Shown here: in pieces, positions 1,993 through 12,714 of the stretch
Layout: each line of letters starts with the position of its first letter
How positions within the stretch are numbered: position 1 is the first letter of the stretch
Assembly: GCA_023132075.1 (NCBI GenBank)
Contig: JAGLYT010000015.1
Location: forward strand, 1 to 12,714
Direction: 5' to 3'
DNA: 12,714 nt
DNA from: JAGLHV01 sp023132075 [NCBI: bacterium]
GTDB lineage: Bacteria; CBDUZB01; JAGLHV01
Translations under genes and position numbers: made by a program
Notes under the pieces: model-generated
Told to the model about the DNA's origin: nothing
The model's database searches: none
The model's input: only the letters and a program-made list of their open reading frames with translations

Positions 1993-2075
1993 GTTATAGA
2001 ACAACAGTCCATAGACAGAAAGTTATAAGCTGTTAGTTATGAATTATAAGTTAAAGACAAAAACAAAAAGTAGTC

Positions 2076-2250
2076 AAACATATTCAAAAAATACCGAAGG
2101 GTAAGTTTGTTTGTAGTCGCTCAATGGACTTGTACTGAGGGTAATCAAAGTATTGAGCAGAAATGTTTAGAAGTCGGAATAGGGTACTTGAATAAAGTCA
2201 AAATATGTTTTTCTCTAGACGCATAATTTTACCCTGCGGGCACGTAAAAA
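2076..2250. other. Unidentified non-coding block with nested short inverted repeats
   Basis: This block lies inside the repeat island but does not follow the heptad pattern. It is bracketed by a 9-bp inverted repeat, AAACATATT (2076-2084) with AATATGTTT (2202-2210). Inside is a second one, GCTCAAT (2119-2125) with ATTGAGC (2152-2158). At the right edge is a TTTTAC...GTAAAA hairpin (2227-2248) around a GC-rich centre CCTGCGGG. The layout suggests a small dispersed element or a decayed mobile fragment. There is no open frame and no recognisable RNA family, so its identity is unknown. Confidence 0.35.
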
Positions 2251-2255
2251 AAAAT

Positions 2256-2290
2256 AGTCCACAGTCGATAGTCAATAGTCCATAGTCAAC
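2256..2290 (+). repeat. Five tandem 7-bp units, AGTCNAY
   Basis: The bases read AGTCCAC, AGTCGAT, AGTCAAT, AGTCCAT, AGTCAAC without interruption. Positions 1-4 and 6 never change; position 5 varies freely and position 7 is always C or T. This resembles in style the heptameric short tandem repeats (STRR) of filamentous cyanobacteria, though the unit differs. Confidence 0.9.
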
Positions 2291-2370
2291 GGAATAAAGA
2301 CAACAGATATATGAGTTTGAAGTTTAAACTATATCGTTCAAAACACATTTTGCCTTTATTTTTTTGTTTT

Positions 2371-2448
2371 GTATTTTGTATTTCGAATTTGCCTGTCCTC
2401 CAGTCTGTAAGGAGGGTTTAGAATTTAGTATTTCAGATTTAGTATTTA
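2371..2448 (+). repeat. AT-rich 7-bp units of the form GTATTTN around a small hairpin
   Basis: GTATTTT, GTATTTC and GAATTTG run from 2371 to 2391. GAATTTA, GTATTTC, AGATTTA and GTATTTA run from 2421 to 2448 and contain an 11-bp direct repeat ATTTAGTATTT with a 14-bp period. The unit length equals that of the neighbouring AGTCNAY arrays although the sequence differs. Low sequence complexity lowers confidence that the pattern is meaningful. Confidence 0.5.
2397..2415. repeat. Small hairpin CCTCC-AGTCTGTAA-GGAGG
   Basis: A 5-bp perfect stem closes a 9-base loop AGTCTGTAA. Two further copies at 2563-2602 have the same stem and loop plan with compensating base changes, so this belongs to a short hairpin-forming repeat family. 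Confidence 0.6.
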
Positions 2449-2457
2449 TTTATTCTT

Positions 2458-2537
2458 TGTCTGTTATCTATGGACTATTGACTATCGACTGTGGACTATG
2501 GACTGTCTTTTATCTGTTGTCTGTCATCTGTGAACTA
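2458..2537 (-). repeat. Opposed 7-bp repeat array, (R/C)TNGACT and NRTCTGT units
   Basis: The centre (2470-2504) reads ATGGACT, ATTGACT, ATCGACT, GTGGACT, ATGGACT: five uninterrupted units that on the other strand are AGTCNAY. It is flanked by diverged units TGTCTGT (2458-2464) and TATCTGT, TGTCTGT, CATCTGT (2511-2531). This array forms the right arm of the 32-bp inverted repeat. Confidence 0.8.
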
Positions 2538-2652: not shown

Positions 2653-3141
2653 ATGAATAGAGAAGCGGTGTATCCGGGTACTTTTGATCCGGTGACTAAT
2701 GGTCATCTGGATATAATAAAAAGAGCACTGCAAATGTTTGATCAAATAACGGTTGCGGTGGTGGATAAACCCGGTAAAGATTTACTTTTTACTACACAGG
2801 AAAGGATAAAAATGCTTCGTAAAACGGTAGGGAATTTATCCAAAGTAAGGGTTGAACGGTTTGAAGGATTGTTGGTTGATTATTTACAGCGAAGAAATAT
2901 TTTTGTAATTATTAGGGGGCTGCGGGCGGTTTCTGATTTTGAATATGAATTTCAAATTGCTTTAATGAATCGAAAATTAAATTCCGAGATAGAAAGTGTT
3001 TTTTTAATGCCCAGTCAGGAGTATACTTATTTGAGTTCCAGTCTAATAAAAGAAGTAGTTAAGTTTGGGGGAAGAATGGATGGATTGGTTCCTGGTATTA
3101 TAGAAAAAGCATTGAAAAAAAAATTTGCATTGACAAAGTAA
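2653..3141 (+). CDS. coaD: Phosphopantetheine adenylyltransferase
   Basis: This enzyme transfers AMP from ATP to 4'-phosphopantetheine, giving dephospho-CoA in the penultimate step of coenzyme A synthesis in the cytoplasm. The 162 residues match the usual CoaD length. The nucleotidyltransferase signature GTFDPVTNGH is at about residues 9-18. The central RGLRAVSDFEYEFQIALMN is typical of CoaD, and the late SSSLIKEVV is the conserved nucleotide-contact segment. I chose the ATG at 2653, which gives the family N-terminus MNREAVYPGTF and has GGAG at 2640-2643 with a 9-nt gap. A TTG at 2638 would add five odd residues and remove the ribosome site. A -35-like TTGACA overlaps the last codons and probably belongs to pilB. 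There is no functional link to pili. Confidence 0.97.
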   Translation: MNREAVYPGTFDPVTNGHLDIIKRALQMFDQITVAVVDKPGKDLLFTTQERIKMLRKTVGNLSKVRVERFEGLLVDYLQRRNIFVIIRGLRAVSDFEYEFQIALMNRKLNSEIESVFLMPSQEYTYLSSSLIKEVVKFGGRMDGLVPGIIEKALKKKFALTK

Positions 3142-3219: not shown

Positions 3220-4965
3220 ATGGGAGTAAGGCAGGCAACAGTTATTAAAGAAAAGTTAGGAAATCTTTTAGTGGATGTCGGTATTATATCCAAAGAACAA
3301 CTTAAAGAAGCCAATGAGGAACAGAAAAAAACAGGGATGAAGCTGGGTAAGATTTTAACGGCGCGTGGATATATTTCCGAAGATGTTCTTTTGGCTTTTT
3401 TAGGAAAACAATTTGGTATTTCTTTTATCAGTTTAGATGAGTATGGTGATATTCCAAAAGATGTTATAAAGTCTGTTCCGGAGAGTATGGTCAAGCGTCA
3501 AATGGTAATTCCTGTTTATAAAAAAAAGAATGTATTGACTATAGCTATGGCGGATCCGATGAATGTTTTTGCAGTGGATGATTTGCGTTTAATGACTGGT
3601 TGTGATGTAAATGTAGTTATTGCTTCCGAGTCGGAAATTAAAAGTGCTATTGAAAAGTATTATGGATCATCCAGTAAAGGTTCAATGGATGACATCTTAA
3701 AAGAGATGGAAACAGGGGATGCTGATGATTTAGAAATAGTAAATGAATCAGAAGGGGAAGAGGAACTGTCTGCACTTGCTTTAGCTGCGGAAGATGCTCC
3801 TGTAGTTAAAATTGTAAATTTACTTTTGGGTGAAGCAATTAAAATGGGCGCCTCGGATATTCATATAGAACCTTACGAAAAGACTCTACGAATTCGTTAC
3901 CGGGTTGATGGAGTTTTACATCAGGCAAAAGCCCCGCCTAAAAAATTACAAAATGCAGTAGTTTCCCGTATAAAAATTATGTCCAGTCTGGATATAGCCG
4001 AAAGGCGTCTTCCCCAGGACGGACGTATTAAAATCAGGGTAAGCAATAGAGAAGTTGATTTACGTGTTTCGATTTTACCTACTGCCTTTGGGGAAAAAGT
4101 TGTTATGCGTGTTTTGGACGCGGCAGCTTTATGCTTGGACTTGACTAAATTAGGATTTGAAGAAAATACGTTAAGTGTGTACAATAAAAACATTGAAATT
4201 CCTTATGGAATTGTTTTGGTTACCGGACCTACAGGGTCGGGTAAATCAACTACCCTTTATTCTACTCTCTCTACTTTAAATTACCCGGATAAAAATATTG
4301 TTACCATTGAAGACCCTGTGGAATATGTATTGGAAGGGATTAATCAGGTGCAAGCCAAACCGGATATTGGTTTAACTTTCGCTGCAGGATTGCGTTCTTT
4401 TTTGAGACAGGATCCGGATATTATAATGGTAGGGGAAATTCGGGATACGGAAACAGCGGAAATTGCTATTAATGCTGCTTTAACCGGTCATTTGGTTTTT
4501 TCTACATTGCATACTAACGATGCACCAGGTGCTGTTACCCGATTGAATAATATGGGAATCGAACCATTTTTAACCTCTTCTACTATTATCATGGTCATTG
4601 CTCAGAGATTAGTGCGGGTGATTTGTAAGAAATGTAAGGAATCCTATGAGGTGCCTTTTGATTCTGTTTCCGGCCTTGGTGTGACGAAAGAAATGGTGGG
4701 AGGGTCAGACAAGGTTACTCTTTATAAGGGGAAAGGTTGTGATAATTGTACCAATACCGGTTATCGCGGCCGGTTAGCCTGTTATGAGGTAATGGAGATA
4801 AATGACAGGATAAGGGATTTAGTTTTAGAGCGGGCTTCTACCCATGTAGTAAAGCAAGCAGCCTGTGAGGAGGGGATGCTTACACTAAGGGAAGCGGCAG
4901 TAAAAAAATTATTATCGGGAACTACTACAGTAGAGGAAGTGATGAGAGTTACTTTCGCTGATTAG
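3220..4965 (+). CDS. pilB: Type IV pilus extension ATPase PilB (GspE/PulE family)
   Basis: PilB is the cytoplasmic hexameric ATPase that powers pilin polymerisation through PilC. The 581 residues begin with an MshEN-type domain: two 24-residue motifs (12-35 and 41-64), each starting KLG and separated by five residues. In MshE this layout binds cyclic di-GMP. The N2-like region precedes the ATPase. ATPase motifs are Walker A GPTGSGKST (336-344), Asp box TIEDPVEY (362-369), Walker B DPDIIMVGEIRD (398-409) and His box TGHLVFSTLHTNDA (422-435). Two CxxC pairs (469/472 and 507/510) form the zinc site usual for PilB/GspE and absent from PilT. AGGAG at 3208-3212 is 7 nt before the ATG. GspE of type II secretion is the alternative; adjacent pilT and downstream pilM-Q favour the pilus. 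Confidence 0.96.
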   Translation: MGVRQATVIKEKLGNLLVDVGIISKEQLKEANEEQKKTGMKLGKILTARGYISEDVLLAFLGKQFGISFISLDEYGDIPKDVIKSVPESMVKRQMVIPVYKKKNVLTIAMADPMNVFAVDDLRLMTGCDVNVVIASESEIKSAIEKYYGSSSKGSMDDILKEMETGDADDLEIVNESEGEEELSALALAAEDAPVVKIVNLLLGEAIKMGASDIHIEPYEKTLRIRYRVDGVLHQAKAPPKKLQNAVVSRIKIMSSLDIAERRLPQDGRIKIRVSNREVDLRVSILPTAFGEKVVMRVLDAAALCLDLTKLGFEENTLSVYNKNIEIPYGIVLVTGPTGSGKSTTLYSTLSTLNYPDKNIVTIEDPVEYVLEGINQVQAKPDIGLTFAAGLRSFLRQDPDIIMVGEIRDTETAEIAINAALTGHLVFSTLHTNDAPGAVTRLNNMGIEPFLTSSTIIMVIAQRLVRVICKKCKESYEVPFDSVSGLGVTKEMVGGSDKVTLYKGKGCDNCTNTGYRGRLACYEVMEINDRIRDLVLERASTHVVKQAACEEGMLTLREAAVKKLLSGTTTVEEVMRVTFAD

Positions 4966-4993
4966 TATTACTTAAAGAAAGGAGTATTGTTTT

Positions 4994-6061
4994 ATGGTTA
5001 ATATGGAGGAATTATTGCAGGTTATGGTGGAAAAAAATGCTTCGGATTTACATCTTACAGTAGGTTCACCTCCGGTTCTCAGAGTTGACGGAGAGATAAT
5101 TCCCCTTGATTATCCCAGTCTTAATCCTGATATTTGTCAAAGATTGATTTATAGTTTACTTACTGATAAACAGAAAGAGAGATTTGAAGGTCAGGATGAG
5201 CTGGATTTATCCTTTGGGATAAAAAGTATAGGCCGGATTAGAATGAATGTTTTTAGGCAACGGGGCTCTGTAGGAGCGGCTTTGCGCTCTATTCCCACTA
5301 AGATACTGTCATTTGATGAACTGGGATTACCTCCGATAGTATATGAGATAATGAAGCTTTCCAAGGGGTTGGTTTTATTGACAGGTCCCACGGGAAGTGG
5401 TAAAACGACAACTTTAGCATCAATGATTAATTATTTAAAACAACACCGCAGTCAACATATAATGACGATAGAAGATCCTATTGAGTATGTCCATCCACAT
5501 GGTAAATGTATTGTTAATCAGAGAGAAGTAGGTAGTGATACTTCTGCTTTTAATGTTGCTTTAAAATATGTTTTACGACAGGATCCGGATATTATATTAA
5601 TCGGAGAAATGAGGGATCTGGAAACAATATCAGCTGCTTTAACTATTGCTGAAACAGGACATTTAGTTTTTGCTACTTTACATACTACTGATGCCGCTCA
5701 ATCGGTTAATCGTATAATTGATGTTTTTCCTCCTCATCAACAACCCCAGATTAGGTCTCAGCTATCTTTTGTTTTACAGGCAATTTTTTCTCAACAGTTG
5801 TTATTGCATGCTAGCGGAAAAGGGCGGGTACTTGCCTGTGAAACATTGTTTGTAACCCCGGCTATTAGAAATTTGGTGCGGGAACAAAAAATAGAACAGA
5901 TTCAAATGGCTATTCAAACAGGCGGAAAATATGGAATGCAGACGATGAATGCATCTTTGTATAATTTATATATTCGTCGACAGATTAGTTATGCCAATGC
6001 ATTAGCCTCCTCATTGGATATAGGAGATTTTAAGAGATTAGTTAATAAACAAGGTGTTTGA
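4994..6061 (+). CDS. pilT: Type IV pilus retraction ATPase PilT
   Basis: PilT drives pilus disassembly and retraction, giving twitching motility. The 355 residues match the family length. The N-terminal PAS-like domain contains the PilT opening NASDLHLTVGSPPVLRVDG (15-33). ATPase motifs are Walker A GPTGSGKT (131-138), Asp box TIEDPIEYVH (158-167), Walker B DPDIILIGEMRD (197-208) and His box TGHLVFATLHTTDA (221-234). The C-terminus has AIRNLVREQK (290-299), the AIRNLIRE-type motif needed for retraction in known PilT, and GMQTMNASL (314-322). It lacks the paired CxxC zinc site of PilB. AAAGGAG (4978-4984) is 9 nt before the chosen ATG; an ATG three codons later is possible. It follows pilB by 28 nt, and a repeat insertion starts right after its stop. 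Confidence 0.97.
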   Translation: MVNMEELLQVMVEKNASDLHLTVGSPPVLRVDGEIIPLDYPSLNPDICQRLIYSLLTDKQKERFEGQDELDLSFGIKSIGRIRMNVFRQRGSVGAALRSIPTKILSFDELGLPPIVYEIMKLSKGLVLLTGPTGSGKTTTLASMINYLKQHRSQHIMTIEDPIEYVHPHGKCIVNQREVGSDTSAFNVALKYVLRQDPDIILIGEMRDLETISAALTIAETGHLVFATLHTTDAAQSVNRIIDVFPPHQQPQIRSQLSFVLQAIFSQQLLLHASGKGRVLACETLFVTPAIRNLVREQKIEQIQMAIQTGGKYGMQTMNASLYNLYIRRQISYANALASSLDIGDFKRLVNKQGV

Positions 6062-6069
6062 TGAAAAGA

Positions 6070-6168
6070 CAAAAGACAGTTGATAGTCCATAGATAACAG
6101 AATAAAGGCAACAGACAATTATGAGTGACGAGTTATAATTTAAAAAAAATTTGGGAGTTTGAAGTTTT
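6070..6168 (+). repeat. Second copy of the dispersed repeat, between pilT and pilC
   Basis: Positions 6083-6116 align without gaps to 2275-2308 in the upstream island with 29 of 34 bases equal (ATAGTCCATAG is identical, then AACAGAATAAAGGCAACAGA-like sequence). After a small indel, both copies have TATGAGT and then GAGTTTGAAGTTT (6155-6167 and 2313-2325). It fills most of the 156-bp pilT-pilC gap and leaves the pilC ribosome site intact. No coding or terminator function is visible. Confidence 0.75.
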
Positions 6169-6217
6169 ATTAGAGTAGTGACACAACAATTATTTTTTTG
6201 CAGGAGGTAAATAATTC

Positions 6218-7447
6218 ATGCCAGAGTATAGTTACAAGGTAAAGACGGTTTCCGGTTCTGTTCGCGATGGAGTTATGTTCGCTAATGAACAAAGAATGGT
6301 AGTAGACCGCCTGCGTGGTCAGAAGCTTATTGTTTTGCAAGTTCAGGAAATAAAAAAAACAGCTTTAAAAGATATTTTGGATAAAATAAATATTTTTAAA
6401 CCGAGCGTAAAATCAAAAGATATGGTGTTATTCAGCCGGCAATTATCTACTCTGGTTGGTGCCGGTATTCCCATTGTTCAGGGGTTAACTATTTTAGGTG
6501 ACCAAATGGAAAATCCGGCTTTCAAAACCGTGATTGGAACAGTAAGGGAAGATATAGAATCGGGATTATCGATTACGGAGGCTTTAGCCAGACATCCAAA
6601 TGCGTTTACCGAATTATATGTTAATATGGTAAAGGCTGGGGAAACCGGTGGGGTATTGGATGTAATTTTAGAAAGACTTTCTAATTATTTGGAAGCATCG
6701 GAACAATTAAAAAGAAAAATAAAAGGAGCGATGATTTATCCCGGGGTTATTTCTTTTGTTTGCGGTTTAGTGACGGTATTTTTACTTACCGTGGTAATTC
6801 CTGCTTTCAAAGAAATTTTTACCAGTTTCGGCGGGGATTTGCCTTTGCCCACTCAATTGTTAATTGGGCTTAGTGAGTTTGTAAAGAAATATGTTTTGGT
6901 TTTTATTGGAGCGGGAATAGGATTTTTTTTCGGTATACGGCAATATTATAGTACGAAAGCAGGACAATGGAATATTGATACTATTTTATTAAAAGTTCCC
7001 GCATTTGGTAATTTGTTGCGTAAAGTTGCTATTGCTAAATTTTCCAGAACATTAGGAACTTTGGTGAAAAGCGGGGTACCTATTTTACAAGCCCTGGATA
7101 CAGTAGCAAAGACATCTGGAAATGTAGTTATTGAAAAAGTTATTTTAGATACACGGGATAGTATTCGGGAAGGGGAAAGAATTGCTCCTCCTTTGAAAAA
7201 AAGTAATACCTTTCCTCCGATGGTTGTCCAGATGATTGCGGTGGGGGAGGAAACCGGAAACTTAGATACGATGTTAAGTAAAATTGCTGATTTTTATGAT
7301 CAGGAAGTAGATGCGGCGGTAGAAGGGTTAACTGCATTGGTTGAGCCGGTGATTATTGTGATAATGGGATTAGTTGTAGGTGCAATTGTTATTGCTATGT
7401 TTTTACCGATGTTTGAATTAGGACAGTTGGCGGGTAATGTAGGATAA
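6218..7447 (+). CDS. pilC: Type IV pilus inner-membrane platform protein PilC (GspF family)
   Basis: PilC is the polytopic platform on which PilB and PilT act to add or remove pilins. The 409 residues are typical. They start MPEYSYKVKT, the usual PilC/GspF opening, followed by two tandem T2SSF domains (about 68-195 and 271-397). Each carries the family's acidic motif: KAGETGGVLD (139-148) and AVGEETGNLD (341-350). Predicted membrane helices are about 172-195, 224-241 and 373-397. The AGGAGGT at 6202-6208, 9 nt before the ATG, is close to an ideal ribosome site. It is separated from pilT by the repeat copy, yet keeps the order pilB-pilT-pilC of many pilus operons. GspF is the alternative and the context argues against it. 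Confidence 0.96.
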   Translation: MPEYSYKVKTVSGSVRDGVMFANEQRMVVDRLRGQKLIVLQVQEIKKTALKDILDKINIFKPSVKSKDMVLFSRQLSTLVGAGIPIVQGLTILGDQMENPAFKTVIGTVREDIESGLSITEALARHPNAFTELYVNMVKAGETGGVLDVILERLSNYLEASEQLKRKIKGAMIYPGVISFVCGLVTVFLLTVVIPAFKEIFTSFGGDLPLPTQLLIGLSEFVKKYVLVFIGAGIGFFFGIRQYYSTKAGQWNIDTILLKVPAFGNLLRKVAIAKFSRTLGTLVKSGVPILQALDTVAKTSGNVVIEKVILDTRDSIREGERIAPPLKKSNTFPPMVVQMIAVGEETGNLDTMLSKIADFYDQEVDAAVEGLTALVEPVIIVIMGLVVGAIVIAMFLPMFELGQLAGNVG

Positions 7448-7461
7448 AAGATATTTTATAA

Positions 7462-7490
7462 TTGACAAAAATTATTTTTTGTGTTATTTT
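7462..7490 (+). promoter_or_regulatory. Strong candidate promoter for pilA (extended -10)
   Basis: Perfect TTGACA (7462-7467), 17-nt spacer, TATTTT (7485-7490), with TG at 7482-7483 giving an extended -10. It would start near 7497 and leave a leader of about 48 nt. The same four elements recur before pilM at 8970-8998. A pilin usually needs far more product than its neighbours, so a dedicated strong promoter fits. No sigma-54 element (GG-N10-GC type), common for pilA in Proteobacteria, is visible. Confidence 0.7.
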
Positions 7491-7526
7491 TATAGAGAAG
7501 GATAATTGATTTAAAAAATAAAAGAA

Positions 7527-7535
7527 GGGAGGTGA
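7527..7535 (+). promoter_or_regulatory. Near-ideal ribosome binding site of pilA
   Basis: GGGAGGTGA differs from the full anti-Shine-Dalgarno complement AGGAGGTGA by one base and sits 9 nt before the ATG. It is the longest such match in the window and agrees with high pilin output. Confidence 0.8.
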
Positions 7536-7544
7536 AAAAGAATA

Positions 7545-7994
7545 ATGTTGAAATTGAAAAGAGTAAAAAAAGGTTTCACCCTTATTGAGTTGATGATCGT
7601 AGTAGCTATTATTGGTATTTTAGCAGCTATTGCTATTCCTAAATTTGCGGATTTAATCCGTAAGTCAAAGGAAGCGTCTACCAAAGGTTCGTTAGGTGCA
7701 ATGCGGGCGGCAATAGTCATTTATTACGGGGATAATGAAGGGTGGTTACCGACGACGTATGAAGACTTAGTTGCTGTTACTGCCACTTCAGGGGCGAAGA
7801 AATATCTGGATGAAGTACCCTTCGTAAAATTAGGGATACCCGGTGTGGCAGATGTTACTACTGTGGATAATAATCCTGCAGGAGGACTTGGTACTACTGG
7901 TTCTGATGGATGGGGCTATCGCAGTATTGACGGAAAGGTAATTGTTGATTCTCTTCGCACGGATACTAAGGGGGGCACTATTACCAGATGGTAA
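7545..7994 (+). CDS. pilA: Type IV major pilin (prepilin) PilA
   Basis: This encodes the structural subunit of the fibre. The 149-residue prepilin has a short basic leader ([10 protein letters not shown]), cut by PilD after Gly10 to expose Phe1. The mature protein starts [20 protein letters not shown] with Glu5, the class IVa hallmark for subunit registration and methylation, followed by IPKF. The mature form is 138 residues, small for a major pilin. Its globular domain contains no cysteine, so there is no disulfide D-loop. The end [14 protein letters not shown]...[10 protein letters not shown] resembles the compact pilins of many non-proteobacterial phyla and type II pseudopilins. It has its own promoter and a long hairpin downstream. 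A pseudopilin (GspG-like) is the alternative; I judge it the main pilin because no other pilin is present. Confidence 0.95.
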
Positions 7995-8021
7995 GATCTT
8001 TGTTTTTTTTCTGATAGTAAG

Positions 8022-8125
8022 AAAAAGGTTGAGTGGTTGGTTGATTGATAAGAGAAAGTGGGAAGTCCTGTTTGTTATAAATTTTTAAAATCTTGTTAAT
8101 TTGCTAACCATCAGCCTTTTTTTTT
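8022..8125 (+). terminator. Long imperfect hairpin with T9 tract after pilA
   Basis: The left strand 8022-8053 pairs with 8091-8121 in about 30 pairs, six of them G-U, interrupted only by a bulged G (8033) and one T-T mismatch (8042/8102). The outer part is AAAAAGGTTGA against TCAGCCTTTTT. The loop is 8054-8090, and nine T end at 8125. It begins 28 nt after the pilA stop. This fits an intrinsic terminator that isolates the abundant pilin message from pilD, possibly also protecting the 3' end. A stem this long is unusual for a plain terminator, so a stable 3'-UTR RNA is an alternative. Confidence 0.65.
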
Positions 8126-8132
8126 GCGGAGA

Positions 8133-8174
8133 AAATTAAAATTTTAATTTATAATTTTCAACGAATTTCAACGA
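8133..8174. promoter_or_regulatory. 18-bp AT palindrome and a 10-bp-period direct repeat upstream of pilD
   Basis: AAATTAAAATTTTAATTT (8133-8150) is a perfect palindrome. Just downstream, TTTCAACGA occurs twice (8156-8164 and 8166-8174) with a 10-bp period, about one helix turn. Both lie in the 72-nt gap between the pilA terminator and pilD. A regulator site is possible, but AT richness makes chance palindromes likely. No clear -35/-10 pair was found here. Confidence 0.35.
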
Positions 8175-8200
8175 CCTAATAAAAGGGGATTTCTACATTG

Positions 8201-9001
8201 ATGCTGTCGGTTTTATTTTTTATTATAATTTTTAGTGCAATGTTAGGAAGTTTCGCTAATGTTTGTATTTATCGAATACCATTAGAAAAATCTATTGTTA
8301 TGCCTTTCTCTTTTTGTCCCTTGTGTAAAAATACTATAAAATTTTACGACAATATTCCTCTGGTAAGTTTTTTTCTTTTGAAAGGAAGGTGTCGGTTTTG
8401 TAAAGGAAAAATTTCTTATGTTTATCCGCTGGTAGAATTAATTATGGCTGTCGGAGGAGGATGGCTTTATTTAATTTATGGGCTGAGTATAAGTTTTTTT
8501 ATAGGGTTGATTTTTTTATGGATTTTAACTGTTATTTCCGTGATTGATTACTATCATCAAATAATACCGGACGAATTATCGTTTCTATTAATTGGTTTGG
8601 GTTTAATTTTTAGTTTTTTCAATCCGTTTCTGGAGGGGTTTTTAGATATTTTTTTTAACGGGAAACACAGTATTTTATGGGCAAGGTTGTCTTCTTCCTT
8701 TTTAGGATTTCTTTTAGGCGGAGGTGTTTTGTATTTAATAGCTGTAATGGGGGAAATAATTTTTAAGCGGGAAGTTATGGGTGGAGGCGATGTAAAACTG
8801 ATTGCAGGTTTAGGAGCTTTTCTGGGGATAGAAAAAATTTTTGATGTGTTGTTTTTGGCGTGTTTGGGAGGAACGGTTATAGGGGGGATGTTAAGAATTA
8901 CAGGTAGAAATAAAAAATGGCAACCTATTCCTTTCGGTCCTTTTTTATGCGCAAGTGCTATTTTTTTTCTTGACAACAAATTAAATATATGGTATTTTTA
9001 A
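8201..9001 (+). CDS. pilD: Prepilin peptidase / N-methyltransferase PilD
   Basis: PilD is the inner-membrane aspartyl protease (A24 family) that removes the prepilin leader after Gly and methylates the new N-terminal Phe. The 266-residue protein is very hydrophobic with about eight membrane helices. Both domains are complete: the cytosolic zinc-binding methylation domain has CPLC (39-42) and CRFC (64-67), followed by the peptidase core. The catalytic aspartates are D116 in VIDYYHQIIPDEL and D197 in the GxGD-type motif MGGGDVKL. The start is ambiguous between ATG 8201 and the immediately preceding TTG 8198; GGGGA at 8185-8189 is 11 or 8 nt away, and the product differs by one residue. PilA in this window is its evident substrate. 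The promoter for pilM lies in its last codons. Confidence 0.96.
   Translation: MLSVLFFIIIFSAMLGSFANVCIYRIPLEKSIVMPFSFCPLCKNTIKFYDNIPLVSFFLLKGRCRFCKGKISYVYPLVELIMAVGGGWLYLIYGLSISFFIGLIFLWILTVISVIDYYHQIIPDELSFLLIGLGLIFSFFNPFLEGFLDIFFNGKHSILWARLSSSFLGFLLGGGVLYLIAVMGEIIFKREVMGGGDVKLIAGLGAFLGIEKIFDVLFLACLGGTVIGGMLRITGRNKKWQPIPFGPFLCASAIFFLDNKLNIWYF
8970..8998 (+). promoter_or_regulatory. Candidate promoter for pilMNOPQ inside the end of pilD
   Basis: TTGACA (8970-8975), 17-nt spacer, TATTTT (8993-8998) and TG at 8990-8991 reproduce exactly the architecture of the pilA promoter. The start would be near 9005, about 74 nt before pilM. The elements lie within pilD codons, so part of the match could be coincidence, but the identical design supports it. 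Confidence 0.6.
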
Positions 9002-9078
9002 AATGTAATTCTGAAAAGCGAAAATAATTTTGTTGTTTGAAAAGGTAGCACGATTCAAATTCAATTGAAAGGGAAAAA

Positions 9079-10194
9079 ATGGGATTATTTTCTAGAGGTA
9101 CGGATGCAATAGGAGTAGACATTGGCAGTTATAATATAAAGGTCGTGCAGTTGAAAAAAATTGGAGATGATAAGTATCAGCTGACGAAGTATGGCAGTGC
9201 TCCTATTTCTCTTGAGTATAATATGGAACTCTCTCCTTTTGATAGGAAACAATTAGCAATAACTTCCTTAAAAAAACTTCTTATACAAAATAAAATTTCT
9301 ACTAAAAATGCGGTAACTTCTGTTTCCGGCAATTCCGTTATTGTCCGTTATGTAAAATTTCCCAGCCTTTCTCATGCCGAATTAGAAAAAACTATTCAGT
9401 TTGAAGCGGAACCGTATATTCCTTTTGGAGTGCAGGATGTAAATATTGGTTTTCAAATTTTGGGTGAAGTAACGGATGAGGGGCAAAAGAAAATGGAAAC
9501 GATATTAATTGCTGCGAAGAAAGAAATAATTCAGGACCGCATTGATATTCTTCAAGAGGCAGGACTTAGACCGGTTATTGTGGATGTAGATGCTTTTGCT
9601 TTGGAAAATGCTTTTGAGTTGAGTTCCGTTACTCAGGGAGCTGAGGAAAATGTTATGTTGGTTGATATTGGGGCGTTGGTTACTAATATTGTGATAGTTG
9701 AAAGTGGAGTTTGCCGGGTAGTGAGGGATGTTCTTGTCGGAGGGGATAATTTTACTAAAGCATTACAAAAGAATTTGCAAGTAGATTATTCGACAGGGGA
9801 AAAAATGAAGTGGGAAAACGGATTGATAATGTTTGATGAAAAGAACATGGAAAAATCTACTGAGGATAACGAGGATAAAGCACAAATTTCAGGAATAATC
9901 GTGAATGCGGTTAAGTCGCTTATTGAAGAAATACAACGTTCCATCGATTATTATCAAACTCAATCCGAAGAAAAGATTGTCAGCCGAATAGTTTTGAGCG
10001 GGGGTAGTGCAAAGTTGAGGAATTTGGATAAGTTTATGAGCCAGGAATTGCATATTCCTGTAGAAACGCATAATCCGTTCAGTGGTGGAAAAGTGAATAC
10101 TGATTTATTTTCAGGGGGAGAGCTTGTTGAAGAGGCACCGTCATTAGTAGTAGCTTTCGGGTTATCTCTAAGAAGGGAGAAAGATATAAAATGA
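9079..10194 (+). CDS. pilM: Type IV pilus assembly ATPase-like protein PilM
   Basis: PilM is a cytoplasmic actin/FtsA-fold protein that binds the N-terminal tail of PilN and couples the motor to the alignment complex. The 371 residues open MGLFSRGTDAIGVDIGSYNI, with phosphate-1 loop DIGS (14-17). Further fold markers are the FPSLSHAELEKTIQFEAE segment (94-111), phosphate-2-like VDIGALVTNI (195-204), VGGDNFTKAL (220-229) and the adenosine-type loop VLSGGSAKL (305-313). The ATG follows GGGA (9071-9074) at a short distance. Its last bases overlap the pilN start as ATGA, so translation is probably coupled. A charged segment at 239-268 is likely a surface loop. No truncation is seen. Confidence 0.96.
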   Translation: MGLFSRGTDAIGVDIGSYNIKVVQLKKIGDDKYQLTKYGSAPISLEYNMELSPFDRKQLAITSLKKLLIQNKISTKNAVTSVSGNSVIVRYVKFPSLSHAELEKTIQFEAEPYIPFGVQDVNIGFQILGEVTDEGQKKMETILIAAKKEIIQDRIDILQEAGLRPVIVDVDAFALENAFELSSVTQGAEENVMLVDIGALVTNIVIVESGVCRVVRDVLVGGDNFTKALQKNLQVDYSTGEKMKWENGLIMFDEKNMEKSTEDNEDKAQISGIIVNAVKSLIEEIQRSIDYYQTQSEEKIVSRIVLSGGSAKLRNLDKFMSQELHIPVETHNPFSGGKVNTDLFSGGELVEEAPSLVVAFGLSLRREKDIK

Positions 10195-10760
10195 TAAAAA
10201 TAAACCTTCTTCCTCACGAAATTCATTTAGAAACAAAAGAATCATCGTCACAGCAGGATGTCTTTATGTTAATAGGGGTGGGTTTAGTTTTATTATTGGT
10301 GGGGAGTTTTTATGGGTTTCGTTTGATGAAAGTTCGAAAACTTACTGTGACTAGAGATCTAATCCAGCAGGAGTTGAATCAACTTCAAACTACAGTAACT
10401 CAGGTGGAAAATTTGGAAAGACAAAGGGAAATGTTGAATAAAAAGTTAGGGGTGATCACTTCCCTAATAAGGAATAGACTGGTTTACCCAAAATTCATGG
10501 AAGCTTTAAGTAGTAGATTGCCTAAAAATGTGTGGATAAATAATATGACGACTGTGAGCGATGCATCATCAATGACTGTAAATGTAAGCGGGGTTTCTTT
10601 TACCAACTTTGGAGTTGCAGATACAATGGATATGTTTGAAAAAGATGAAACTTTTGCCAAACACATAGGTGAAATAAATTTAGGGGGAATTCAATCCTCC
10701 GTTGTAAACAAAAACGTTAAGTCTTTTAACTTTACTCTTTCAGGTGTTTATAAATATTAA
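10191..10760 (+). CDS. pilN: Type IV pilus inner-membrane alignment protein PilN
   Basis: PilN is a bitopic inner-membrane protein that pairs with PilO in the periplasm and with PilM in the cytoplasm. The 189 residues carry the diagnostic INLLP motif (4-8), which docks into PilM, one membrane helix (24-43), a coiled-coil stretch (about 45-88) and a ferredoxin-like periplasmic domain including the family segment LSSRLPKNVWINNMT (106-120). Its ATG overlaps the pilM stop by four bases, and GGGAG (10175-10179) lies upstream. GspL-type proteins of type II secretion fuse the PilM and PilN parts; here they are separate, which supports a pilus. Confidence 0.94.
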   Translation: MIKINLLPHEIHLETKESSSQQDVFMLIGVGLVLLLVGSFYGFRLMKVRKLTVTRDLIQQELNQLQTTVTQVENLERQREMLNKKLGVITSLIRNRLVYPKFMEALSSRLPKNVWINNMTTVSDASSMTVNVSGVSFTNFGVADTMDMFEKDETFAKHIGEINLGGIQSSVVNKNVKSFNFTLSGVYKY

Positions 10761-10771
10761 GGAGTGGGCAT

Positions 10772-11320
10772 TTGGAACCAATAACTAAACAACAAAAAGT
10801 TTTAGTAGGAGTTTTGTTGCTGGCGGGTATGTATGTTTTTAATTCGCGGTTTTTAAGACCGCAGGGGATGCAACTAAAAAATTTAGAGCAGGAAGTTTCG
10901 CAGAAAGAAAGTAAATTGCAACTGGTTAAGCAAAGAGCAAGTAAATTGGATCAGTTAAAGTTAGATTTCGAATTTTTGAAAAAAGAACTTTCAGCAGCAG
11001 AGCAGAAATTGCCGAAACGGAAAGAAATTTCTGCGTTATTAAGGAAAATAACAAGGTCGGGCCAAAAGTTTAAAATAAATTTTCTTTCCATTTCTCCTCA
11101 GGCGGAAATTAGCCAAACATATTTTATAAAAATCCCCATTAGTGTGAGTGTCAGCACTTATTATCATTCTCTGGGTTTATTCCTTGCTGAATTAGGACAA
11201 CTTGAAAGAATCGTAAAGGTGAACAATTTGAATATAATGGCCAAAAGTCCGACGGAGGGAGATCCGACTAATATAAGTGCGAATTTTCAGTTGACAACTT
11301 ATATTTTTAAATCAAATTAA
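10772..11320 (+). CDS. pilO: Type IV pilus inner-membrane alignment protein PilO
   Basis: PilO dimerises with PilN and contacts PilP, helping to hold the secretin in line with the motor. The 182 residues show one membrane helix (9-25), a lysine- and glutamine-rich coiled coil (33-80), then a ferredoxin-like domain. Markers are the KLPKRKEISALLRKIT linker (79-94) and YHSLGLFLAELGQLERIVKV (131-150), a typical PilO stretch. The start is TTG at 10772: it has GGAG (10761-10764) 7 nt upstream, only 11 nt after pilN, and gives the right N-terminus before the helix. No in-frame ATG lies before residue 20. Sequence divergence is high in this family, so order and topology carry much of the call. Confidence 0.92.
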   Translation: MEPITKQQKVLVGVLLLAGMYVFNSRFLRPQGMQLKNLEQEVSQKESKLQLVKQRASKLDQLKLDFEFLKKELSAAEQKLPKRKEISALLRKITRSGQKFKINFLSISPQAEISQTYFIKIPISVSVSTYYHSLGLFLAELGQLERIVKVNNLNIMAKSPTEGDPTNISANFQLTTYIFKSN

Positions 11321-11373
11321 AACAAACCGGGAGTAAAAGTGTAGTGAGAAAAATAATCGCAGGGAATCATTTT

Positions 11374-11865
11374 ATGATAGCAAAGAATGTTTTGTGTTTT
11401 GTGTTGGTTTTTTTGTTTTTTTGTGTTTTGGGTTGCGGTAAAAAAGAGAAAAAAATTTCCACTGCTTTGCCTACAACTATACCGCAGAAGAAAGTAGTGA
11501 CCGAAGTAGTAACGGATAAGCAAAAAAAGGCCGAGGTAAAATATGAATACAAAGGAGGAAAATATCGAAATCCTTTGTTGTCGTTAACGGTCAAAGGGGA
11601 AGCGATTGAAGGAATAGCCGAGATGACCGCGGCTAATTTGTCTACTTTGACCCTTAGAGGCATTGTAAAAGACTCCCGAAAAAAACGCTTAGCTTTAATT
11701 GATGATGTTAGCGGGTCGAGTTATATTGTAAAAGATAAAATGTTGATTAATCAGCGGGGAAGAAGGGTAAAAGGAGTGGTTGGTATTGTTAAAGAGAAAA
11801 GTGTAGTTTTGATGACCAGCGACAAAGGGATAAAAGAATTAAAAATCGAGAGTAGTGTAAAATAA
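11374..11865 (+). CDS. pilP: Type IV pilus lipoprotein PilP
   Basis: PilP is an inner-membrane lipoprotein whose periplasmic beta domain links PilN/PilO to the PilQ secretin. The 163-residue product has a lipoprotein signal ending VLGC, with lipidated Cys21. A charged disordered linker (22-62) follows. Then come KYRNPLL (63-69), the PilP/GspC-like entry to the domain, and the beta repeat LRGIVKDSRKKRLALID, YIVKDKML, RVKGVVGIVKEKSVVL. I favour the ATG at 11374 (AGGGA 8 nt upstream, 20-residue signal). A GTG at 11344 with GGGAG 10 nt upstream would add ten residues, and either may be right. It lies between pilO and pilQ, the classical position. Confidence 0.93.
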   Translation: MIAKNVLCFVLVFLFFCVLGCGKKEKKISTALPTTIPQKKVVTEVVTDKQKKAEVKYEYKGGKYRNPLLSLTVKGEAIEGIAEMTAANLSTLTLRGIVKDSRKKRLALIDDVSGSSYIVKDKMLINQRGRRVKGVVGIVKEKSVVLMTSDKGIKELKIESSVK

Positions 11866-11948
11866 GCAACTGTTGGTTTATTCGGTGGCTTGCTGTGGCT
11901 ATTAATTAATGTAAATAGATTGAATGAATATTACTGGGAGGAAAATAG

Positions 11949-12714
11949 ATGAAAAAAATGGTATGGTTTTGTGTTATAGGTATGGTTTGTGGGATATTTA
12001 TTAAAAGTACTGTGCAGGGGACAGATGAGGAAAAAGAAGTTTCTTACCGGCAATTAACAAGTGTAAGAATGGAAACAGTTAGCGATGACAAGACAAAACT
12101 AATTATCTCTCTTAACGGCCGAATAAAATACCATTGCTTCAAAATTACGAAGCCTTTAAGGTTGGTAATTGAGTTGACTAACACTCTTCATAACTGGGAG
12201 CAAAAGGAAATTGAGGATACCGGGGATTCTTTAATTAAGAGGGTTCGTTCTGCACAGTTTCAAAATGAACCGATAAAAATCAGCAGAGTAGTCCTGGATT
12301 TGAAAGACAAAGTTTCCTATAAAAGTGAATTGGATGACATTACCAATCAGCTTGTTGTAACTCTTACTCGTGAGGCTAAAAAAACAGCTAAAAAAAAGAT
12401 AGCAAAAATATCTCCGAAAAAAAAGAAAATAAAGGAACGAACAACGAAAAAAACAGCTAAAAAGGAAGAAGGAGTGTTTCCTTCTATTAGTAAACAAATA
12501 GTCTCGCTTGATTTTAACGAAGCGGAAATTCGGGATGTTTTAAGAATTTTAGCGGTGAAGAGCGGGGTGAACATAGTTTATGGAGATGATGTTTCCGGTA
12601 CGGTAACAATACACTTGGATGATGTTCCCTTTGATGATGCGGTGAGTATGATCCTGAAAATAAGAGGTTTAGTCATTCAGAAAGTAAGCGGAAATATTTT
12701 CAGGGTTATTACCC
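11949..12714 (+). CDS. pilQ: Type IV pilus outer-membrane secretin PilQ (3' end missing)
   Basis: PilQ forms the outer-membrane pore through which the pilus passes. The frame is open from ATG 11949 to the right edge (255 codons seen; PilQ is usually 600-900), so only N-terminal domains are present. Residues 1-24 are a signal peptide. Residues 34-140 form one AMIN domain, the peptidoglycan-binding module of PilQ (LTSVRMETVSDDKTKLIISL, LRLVIEL, ISRVVLDLKDKVSY, QLVVTL). A lysine-rich linker spans 142-174. Residues 185-255 are the STN/secretin N0-type domain (VSLDFNEAEIRDVLRILAV, GTVTIHLDDVPFDDAVSMIL). GGGAGG (11936-11941) stands 7 nt before the ATG, 83 nt after pilP. Many PilQ proteins have two AMIN domains; only one is visible here. 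Confidence 0.95.
   Translation, partial: MKKMVWFCVIGMVCGIFIKSTVQGTDEEKEVSYRQLTSVRMETVSDDKTKLIISLNGRIKYHCFKITKPLRLVIELTNTLHNWEQKEIEDTGDSLIKRVRSAQFQNEPIKISRVVLDLKDKVSYKSELDDITNQLVVTLTREAKKTAKKKIAKISPKKKKIKERTTKKTAKKEEGVFPSISKQIVSLDFNEAEIRDVLRILAVKSGVNIVYGDDVSGTVTIHLDDVPFDDAVSMILKIRGLVIQKVSGNIFRVIT

Follow-up and report, generated by a model that had tools for sequence, protein, structure and literature searches.

Known Heptamers and Intergenic Mosaics

Several described kinds of bacterial intergenic repeat resemble the subject of this study, two opposed arrays of a 7-bp unit, AGTCNAY, in a 12,714-nucleotide stretch from JAGLHV01 sp023132075 (assembly GCA_023132075.1, contig JAGLYT010000015.1), the whole of which I will call the window. 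Heptads are common in bacteria (PMC4679880, PMC4692102; these and the other papers below are cited from excerpts), and heptanucleotides are the most abundant class of long simple repeat in most surveyed genomes, where they are commonly read as products of slippage (PMC4679880, citing earlier work). Heptamer repeats have been described in Beggiatoaceae, cyanobacteria, and Bacteroidetes (PMC4679880), and G-rich heptamers are also on record (PMC4692102). The heptamer TAACTGA of marine Beggiatoaceae forms short, mostly intergenic arrays in many places, some of them split by related heptamers (PMC4679880). Repetitive extragenic palindromes (REPs) lie mostly downstream of genes, often in opposite orientations, and are able to form larger structures (PMC3733652). 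Finally, the neisserial intergenic mosaic elements combine short repeats with variable repeat segments (dRS3 and RS) in mosaic intergenic arrays, dRS3 being a 20-bp repeat, ATTCCC(N8)GGGAAT (PMC3898611).

The AGTCNAY arrays, in the window and in its genus, share features with each of these systems. Like the TAACTGA repeats they are short, mostly intergenic, and present at many places, but the unit is a different one, and the arrays follow stop codons at a median of 38 bp and precede start codons at a median of 95 bp, whereas TAACTGA stands just upstream of start codons. Like REPs and bacterial interspersed mosaic elements (BIMEs) they are extragenic (171 of 173 arrays lie outside genes), mainly downstream of genes, and often opposed, but the heptad is not a palindrome, the array sequences are not built of a 20–40 bp palindromic unit, and no REP-associated tyrosine transposase (RAYT) adjoins them. 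As in the neisserial elements, short repeats are combined with variable segments in intergenic mosaics; here, however, the border is a nonpalindromic heptad array, and the dRS3 consensus has no match in the window and 98 further stretches from the genus (452,194 bases in all).

The preliminary description of the locus had likened the arrays to the short tandemly repeated repetitive (STRR) sequences of cyanobacteria, with a different unit. The likeness was a fair lead, since both consist of tandem 7-bp units, largely intergenic and in many copies. The cyanobacterial loci considered here were taken from among the matches listed and classed by record titles, and within that set AGTCAAC makes up at least half of the units in 42 of 75 arrays. 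This heptad fits AGTCNAY, so the window's unit is not so different from the cyanobacterial one after all. (The unit of STRR3 is CAACAGT; the letters of STRR units were sought in the literature and not found there.) What differs is the organization: a single exact unit type makes up the whole array in 47 of the 75 listed cyanobacterial cases, as compared to 8 of 173 in the genus, and the listed cyanobacterial arrays have no gene-facing polarity (25 of 58 evaluable, from 50 loci). For 53 loci of other phyla, again among the matches listed, the count is 26 of 36. The host differs as well, for the window's phylum, which in the searched set comprises a single genus with three genomes, is not Cyanobacteria.

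In the excerpts available, known heptamers, REPs, and neisserial mosaics each share some features with the arrays and none has a fixed-order, gene-facing border, nor did open-licence papers turn up a description of such a heptad border, of this genus, or of this word. In the phylum of the window, heptad arrays are near-fixed in order and face both genes and each other, and here the idea that heptads may be parts of mobile or exchangeable blocks between genes can be put to a direct test. The reading I favor, with a probability of roughly 0.55, is that the arrays are polar repeats at the borders of mosaic, non-autonomous insertions in intergenic DNA, with slippage turning over their units. Each array would be a copy of one dispersed polar repeat, mostly of three to five AGTCNAY heptads in near-fixed order, with an A-rich flank before it and often AT-rich heptads after it. 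Copies of this repeat would make the outer ends of small non-coding mosaic blocks inserted in gene spacers, and the same repeat, inverted at both sides of a block, would yield two inward-facing arrays and with them the mirrored arms. The blocks may move as units by means of an enzyme supplied in trans, while slippage in steps of 7 bp would alter the number of units.

Two Opposed Arrays in One Spacer

The two arrays lie in an intergenic spacer of 660 bp (1993–2652, as defined by open reading frames (ORFs) and gene calls), whose flanking genes are read in the same direction. Both are evident in the sequence and to Tandem Repeats Finder (TRF). The left array (2256–2290, plus strand) consists of AGTCCAC, AGTCGAT, AGTCAAT, AGTCCAT, and AGTCAAC, and the right array (2470–2504, read on the minus strand from 2504 to 2470) of AGTCCAT, AGTCCAC, AGTCGAT, AGTCAAT, and AGTCCAT. 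Every unit has AGTC and, at position 6, A; variation occurs at positions 5 and 7. Units 1 to 4 of the left array equal units 2 to 5 of the right, so that the arms are shifted by one unit. Repeat comparison gives an exact inverted match of 32 bp between 2254–2285 (plus strand) and 2468–2499 (minus strand), which can be extended at neither side and which sits within a 40-bp match of 93% (2254–2293 with 2460–2499). In these respects the locus is as first reported, five units opposed to five and exact over 32 bases. So too are the AT-rich 7-bp steps nearby, which TRF places at 2367–2383 (TTTTGTA, plus strand) and 2417–2448 (TTTAGTA, plus strand), the second adjoining the right array on its inner side; words like TTTAGTA come after the array at other loci too. 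The pattern (AGTCNAY)2AGTC has six matches in the window. It is not there by chance, because it was absent from 200 dinucleotide shuffles of the window and because the pattern read backward, the control used in genome searches, has no match in the genome.

Mirrored arms might also be made by a folded or chimeric read, and the window is a contig of a fragmented draft (1.87 Mb in 389 contigs; G000 below). Of the 68 places in this genome that match the spacer, 12 are no more than 5 bp from a contig end (on stretches L037, L043, L050, L052, L057, and others), which suggests that the repeats may fragment the assembly. However, the flanks of the two arms differ, and a congener, separately assembled, has two arrays arranged in the same way between this pair of genes. 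A folded or chimeric contig, of which there was no sign, is for that reason very improbable.

A Family of Arrays Across the Genus

Genome-wide, (AGTCNAY)2AGTC occurs 34 times in G000 and, in its two congeners, 9 times in G001 and 332 times in G002, while the backward control occurs in none of the three. Outside the genus the pattern was found in 3 of 57 further genomes searched, the backward control likewise in 3 of 57. From the window and the 98 stretches I assembled a set of 173 arrays with at least three units, two of them exact: 147 from G002, 19 from G000, and 7 from G001. The stretches were picked for holding matches to the pattern, which biases the proportion of spacers that have arrays.

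The order of units is nearly fixed. Named by their letters 5 to 7, the units begin CAT-CAC-GAT-CAT in 65 of the 173 arrays and CAT-GAC-CAT-CAT in another 36, and a few arrays are long runs of a single unit. The context also recurs: commonly an A-rich flank (64% A in the 12 bases preceding arrays versus 34% in spacers), then the array, then often AT-rich heptads, as with the right array of the window. The excess identity at a lag of 7 is +0.112 in spacers that have arrays, or +0.059 once the arrays are masked; array-free spacers reach +0.031 and genes −0.005. The AT-rich steps of the window belong to this general 7-bp periodicity of the examined spacers. Both the abundance of copies and the persistence of the 7-bp period, on which the preliminary description depended, are borne out in the genus.

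Spacers that are 7-periodic even where they hold no array could be taken to mean that the arrays are plain simple repeats of the STRR kind, grown locally by slippage, immobile, and inverted with respect to each other by coincidence. The differences in unit number between sister species and the few arrays that are long runs of one unit would agree with this, as would the commonness of heptads in bacteria, at least as excerpted (PMC4679880, PMC4692102). Yet arrays arising independently would not be expected to share a common order of unlike units, as 101 of the 173 do, nor to show the inward bias (26 pairs versus 1) and the polarity (121 of 135 arrays) set out below, and I hold this explanation, already disfavored, to be quite unlikely.

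Several unrelated 7-bp words (of the AGTTATA, AAATACT, and AGATAAC types) occur in the fetched spacers of all three genomes, even those without an AGTC array. Long runs of other units also stand beside arrays, among them GATAACA (7 bp) and 12-bp units like AAAGATAAAGAC (L133 before position 139, L149 at about 1900–2130).

Placement and Polarity Relative to Genes

Placement was judged by my own hexamer-scored gene calls, which supersede earlier and cruder ORF calls (those had put 16 of 108 arrays inside ORFs, made 58 of 71 polar, and classed two as divergent). By the later calls two of the 173 arrays overlap a gene. Of the 135 arrays flanked by genes on both sides, 121 have the closer gene at their 5' side. 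The first set contributes 75 of 86 to this count, and the stretches added once the polarity had been noticed contribute 46 of 49. These 135 arrays include 88 between two genes read in the array's direction and 12 between convergent genes. The median distance to the stop codon given above, 38 bp, is that of arrays reading with both neighbors, and the median of 95 bp to the start codon that of arrays reading against both. Where arrays share a spacer, 26 pairs face inward, 1 faces outward, and 66 read in the same direction. None of the four divergent spacers of at least 150 bp holds an array (Fisher p 0.03), a comparison of four spacers only, underpowered, from which I claim no avoidance of divergent promoters.

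At three places (L316 at about 2418, L321 at about 803, and L151 at about 5126) the TAG stop of a called gene lies inside a heptad array (CCATAG), and these genes look as if their ends came from the array.

Comparison of Sister Species

Orthologous spacers of the sister species differ in the number of units, in register (1 versus 5, 2 versus 3). They differ also in unit type (GAC versus GAT) and in their interiors. One site is cleanly empty in a sister species: in G002 (L165) two copies of TCACTTT enclose a block of 306 bp that has an inward-facing array near each end, and in G000 (L078) the block is missing and TCACTTT stands once. In another spacer G002 has 245 bp and an array, and G000 has 33 bp. 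A third measures 434 bp in G002 (L159), where both of its edges carry inward-facing arrays, and about 59 bp in G001 (L358), where it has none, although this comparison does not give a clean junction, since the remaining letters differ.

Taken over edges of spacers, an array is present in both species in 10 of the 17 comparisons in which either species has one, spacers shorter than 200 bp in both species being excluded (one of these has a one-sided match to a single unit). Homology running out from the gene ends within the array or no more than 15 bp from it was seen, as a raw count, in 6 of 10 comparisons. Duplicate rows were removed by hand from both counts; in each, one edge was compared in two species pairs, and in the count of 17 a second edge was as well. 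Ten more spacers, outside these counts, were read by eye. Three have the array at the same edge (#2, #8, and the right edge of #4), in three it is absent from the sister species (#1, #9, and #14), and the others are cut by contig ends or unclear.

That homology ends in or near the array in 6 of 10 edge comparisons, together with the polarity and the bias of 26 inward pairs to 1, would also suit a bracketing system in which polar arrays mark both gene edges as seams, the interior of the spacer being swapped or lost while the gene-proximal sequence and the array stay. I consider such a system possible, though on the unlikely side.

Mobile Elements and the Weight of the Insertion Reading

The left array of the window lies inside an element (2193–2358, plus strand) with the terminal inverted repeats TAAAGTCAAAATATGTTTT../..AAAACACATTTTGCCTTTA and a shortened interior, which resembles a miniature inverted-repeat transposable element (MITE) in being short, multicopy, and bounded by such repeats. 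Its family in the genus has the terminal inverted repeats AATAAAGGC../..GCCTTTATT, with a variable middle in ACCC(N3)GGGCACGC (in the window, L145, L153, L328, and others). The stretches hold 44 left ends, 28 of them with a right end at a distance of 102–250 bp. Twelve of the 28 complete copies are 160 bp long, and those with an array are 166–250 bp. As in a MITE, the element around the left array is short, non-coding, and bounded by inverted repeats, but the right array is outside it, and while 11 of the 28 complete copies carry an array, 17 do not.

Transposases of the IS200/RAYT type were sought as matches to Y1_Tnp. There are 13 in G002, 3 in G000, and none in G001, the same rank order as the matches to the array pattern (332, 34, and 9). 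This agreement, with the placement of arrays after genes and in inverted neighbors, as in REPs (PMC3733652, in excerpt), might be thought to indicate that the arrays are a family of the REP/BIME type, mobilized by a RAYT transposase. However, a single array is not palindromic, the Y1 genes are not flanked by arrays, and three genomes are too few to establish a correlation, all of which makes this explanation improbable. The search for a RAYT in cis had a negative result: none of the 16 Y1 matches has an array within about 1 kb in the fetched flank, which reached up to 1.5 kb and was shorter at contig ends, and a single one has an array beyond 1 kb.

Several observations weigh against reading the arrays as borders of inserted blocks. 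No transposase adjoins them, and 15 of the 16 Y1 matches in the phylum have no unit-like match in the fetched flank. A clean empty site goes with arrays at both ends in a single case, that of the 306-bp block, and the 7-bp repeat TCACTTT at that site could be the microhomology of a deletion in the other species. In 4 of the 10 edge comparisons, which include both edges of the window's spacer, homology continues well past the array. Any module with an array at its 5' end would yield part of the polarity, though the inward order of opposed pairs (26 versus 1) would not follow from it. Pairs in the same direction (66) exceed inward pairs, which means that many spacers are not bracketed. Moreover, the arrays of sister species are not independent, and they come from stretches picked for matches.

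The Mirrored Match and RNA Folding

According to the preliminary description, units that vary and yet match perfectly in inverted orientation imply recent copying, conversion, or selection for pairing rather than slippage alone. As a general statement this fails. Of 14,698 pairs of arrays drawn from different stretches, 1,600 (11%) share at least 32 bp, and the near-fixed order of units throughout the family explains most of the window's mirrored match. The longest match between arms within a spacer has a mean of 17.6 as compared to 16.9 after reshuffling (standard deviation 0.94, p 0.26, 23 pairs), and for adjacent inward pairs the corresponding means are 17.1 and 16.7 (standard deviation 1.13, p 0.36, 13 pairs). 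These two permutation tests reject, as general processes, both selection for exact pairing and conversion of one arm by the other, the window locus alone being unusual. A perfect mirrored match between units that appear variable need not signal selection for pairing.

At the window itself the claim of copying keeps some support. Its left arm matches any of 171 other arrays over at most 24 bp and its own partner over 32 bp, the difference arising because both arms carry GAT-AAT. Outside the window's arms this step occurs in one other array of the 173 (L167), and the arms of the congener at the orthologous place lack AAT. The AAT unit is in both arms in the window's spacer and in G002:C9, and in a single arm at other spacers. 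A rare step shared by both arms suggests one local event of copying from arm to arm, which is plausible on the sequence, at a locus that was chosen for its match. Under the insertion reading, the exact 32-bp match would be sequence common to the family plus this one event.

If transcribed, the span 2254–2499 would fold as one long hairpin, with pairing that runs inward beyond the arrays. The fold of 2240–2520 has an energy of −95.9 kcal/mol versus −52.3 for shuffles (standard deviation 4.3; z −10.2). Folding was applied to 12 of the 13 adjacent inward pairs (the arrays of the remaining pair lie too far from each other) and gave z below −5 every time, whereas 20 array spacers without an inward pair have a mean z of −1.7 (lowest −4.5) and 20 spacers without arrays a mean of −2.2 (lowest −12.1). 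On average, 5.1 of the 8 nt outside an array are A, which means 5.1 T after an inverted arm. From this one might suppose that opposed arrays are kept for a function in RNA, as a long hairpin with an A-rich start and a U-rich end that would serve as a two-way terminator, an insulator, or an RNase III site, and the position of arrays reading with co-directional genes, shortly after the stop codon, would agree. But the arms are not co-adapted, arms within a spacer being no more alike than shuffled pairs; many arrays have no inward partner; and the strong folding follows from inverted copies of one repeat family, any pair of which would fold strongly, and is not proof of function. No terminator-like site was found in 1950–2700, and Rfam has no match above the gathering score in the window. 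An RNA role for the arrays is unproven, and I judge it to be about as doubtful as the bracketing of seams.

In L135 (1572–1601), and in G000 too, there is a hairpin like an intrinsic terminator, AAAAGACAGTC..GACTGTCTTTT, whose outer letters match the borders of arrays.

Neighboring Genes and Other Features of the Spacer

To the left of the spacer is a gene for a predicted membrane protein (853–1992), whose product has DUF5723 as its sole Pfam match, below the cut-off. To the right is a cytidylyltransferase-like gene (2653–3141; Pfam CTP_transf_like for 2653–3138), presumably coaD to judge from its motif. The window downstream of it (3220–12714) holds, by Pfam, a type IV pilus cluster with two T2SSE ATPases, T2SSF, an N_methyl pilin, a prepilin peptidase, PilM, and an AMIN/STN secretin-type protein.

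Near the left gene edge of the spacer stands a lone AGTCCAT unit (2006–2012, plus strand, from the sequence), at the position of which the congener has a four-unit array (L133, 4806–4833). The spacer contains further short inverted words at 2119–2158, 2393–2416, 2563–2581, and 2585–2601, namely GCTCAATGG..TATTGAGC; CTGTCCTCC..GGAGGG; CCGCCAGTCAGTAAGGCGG; and CGCCAGTTTTTAAGGCG, and similar words occur in other spacers.
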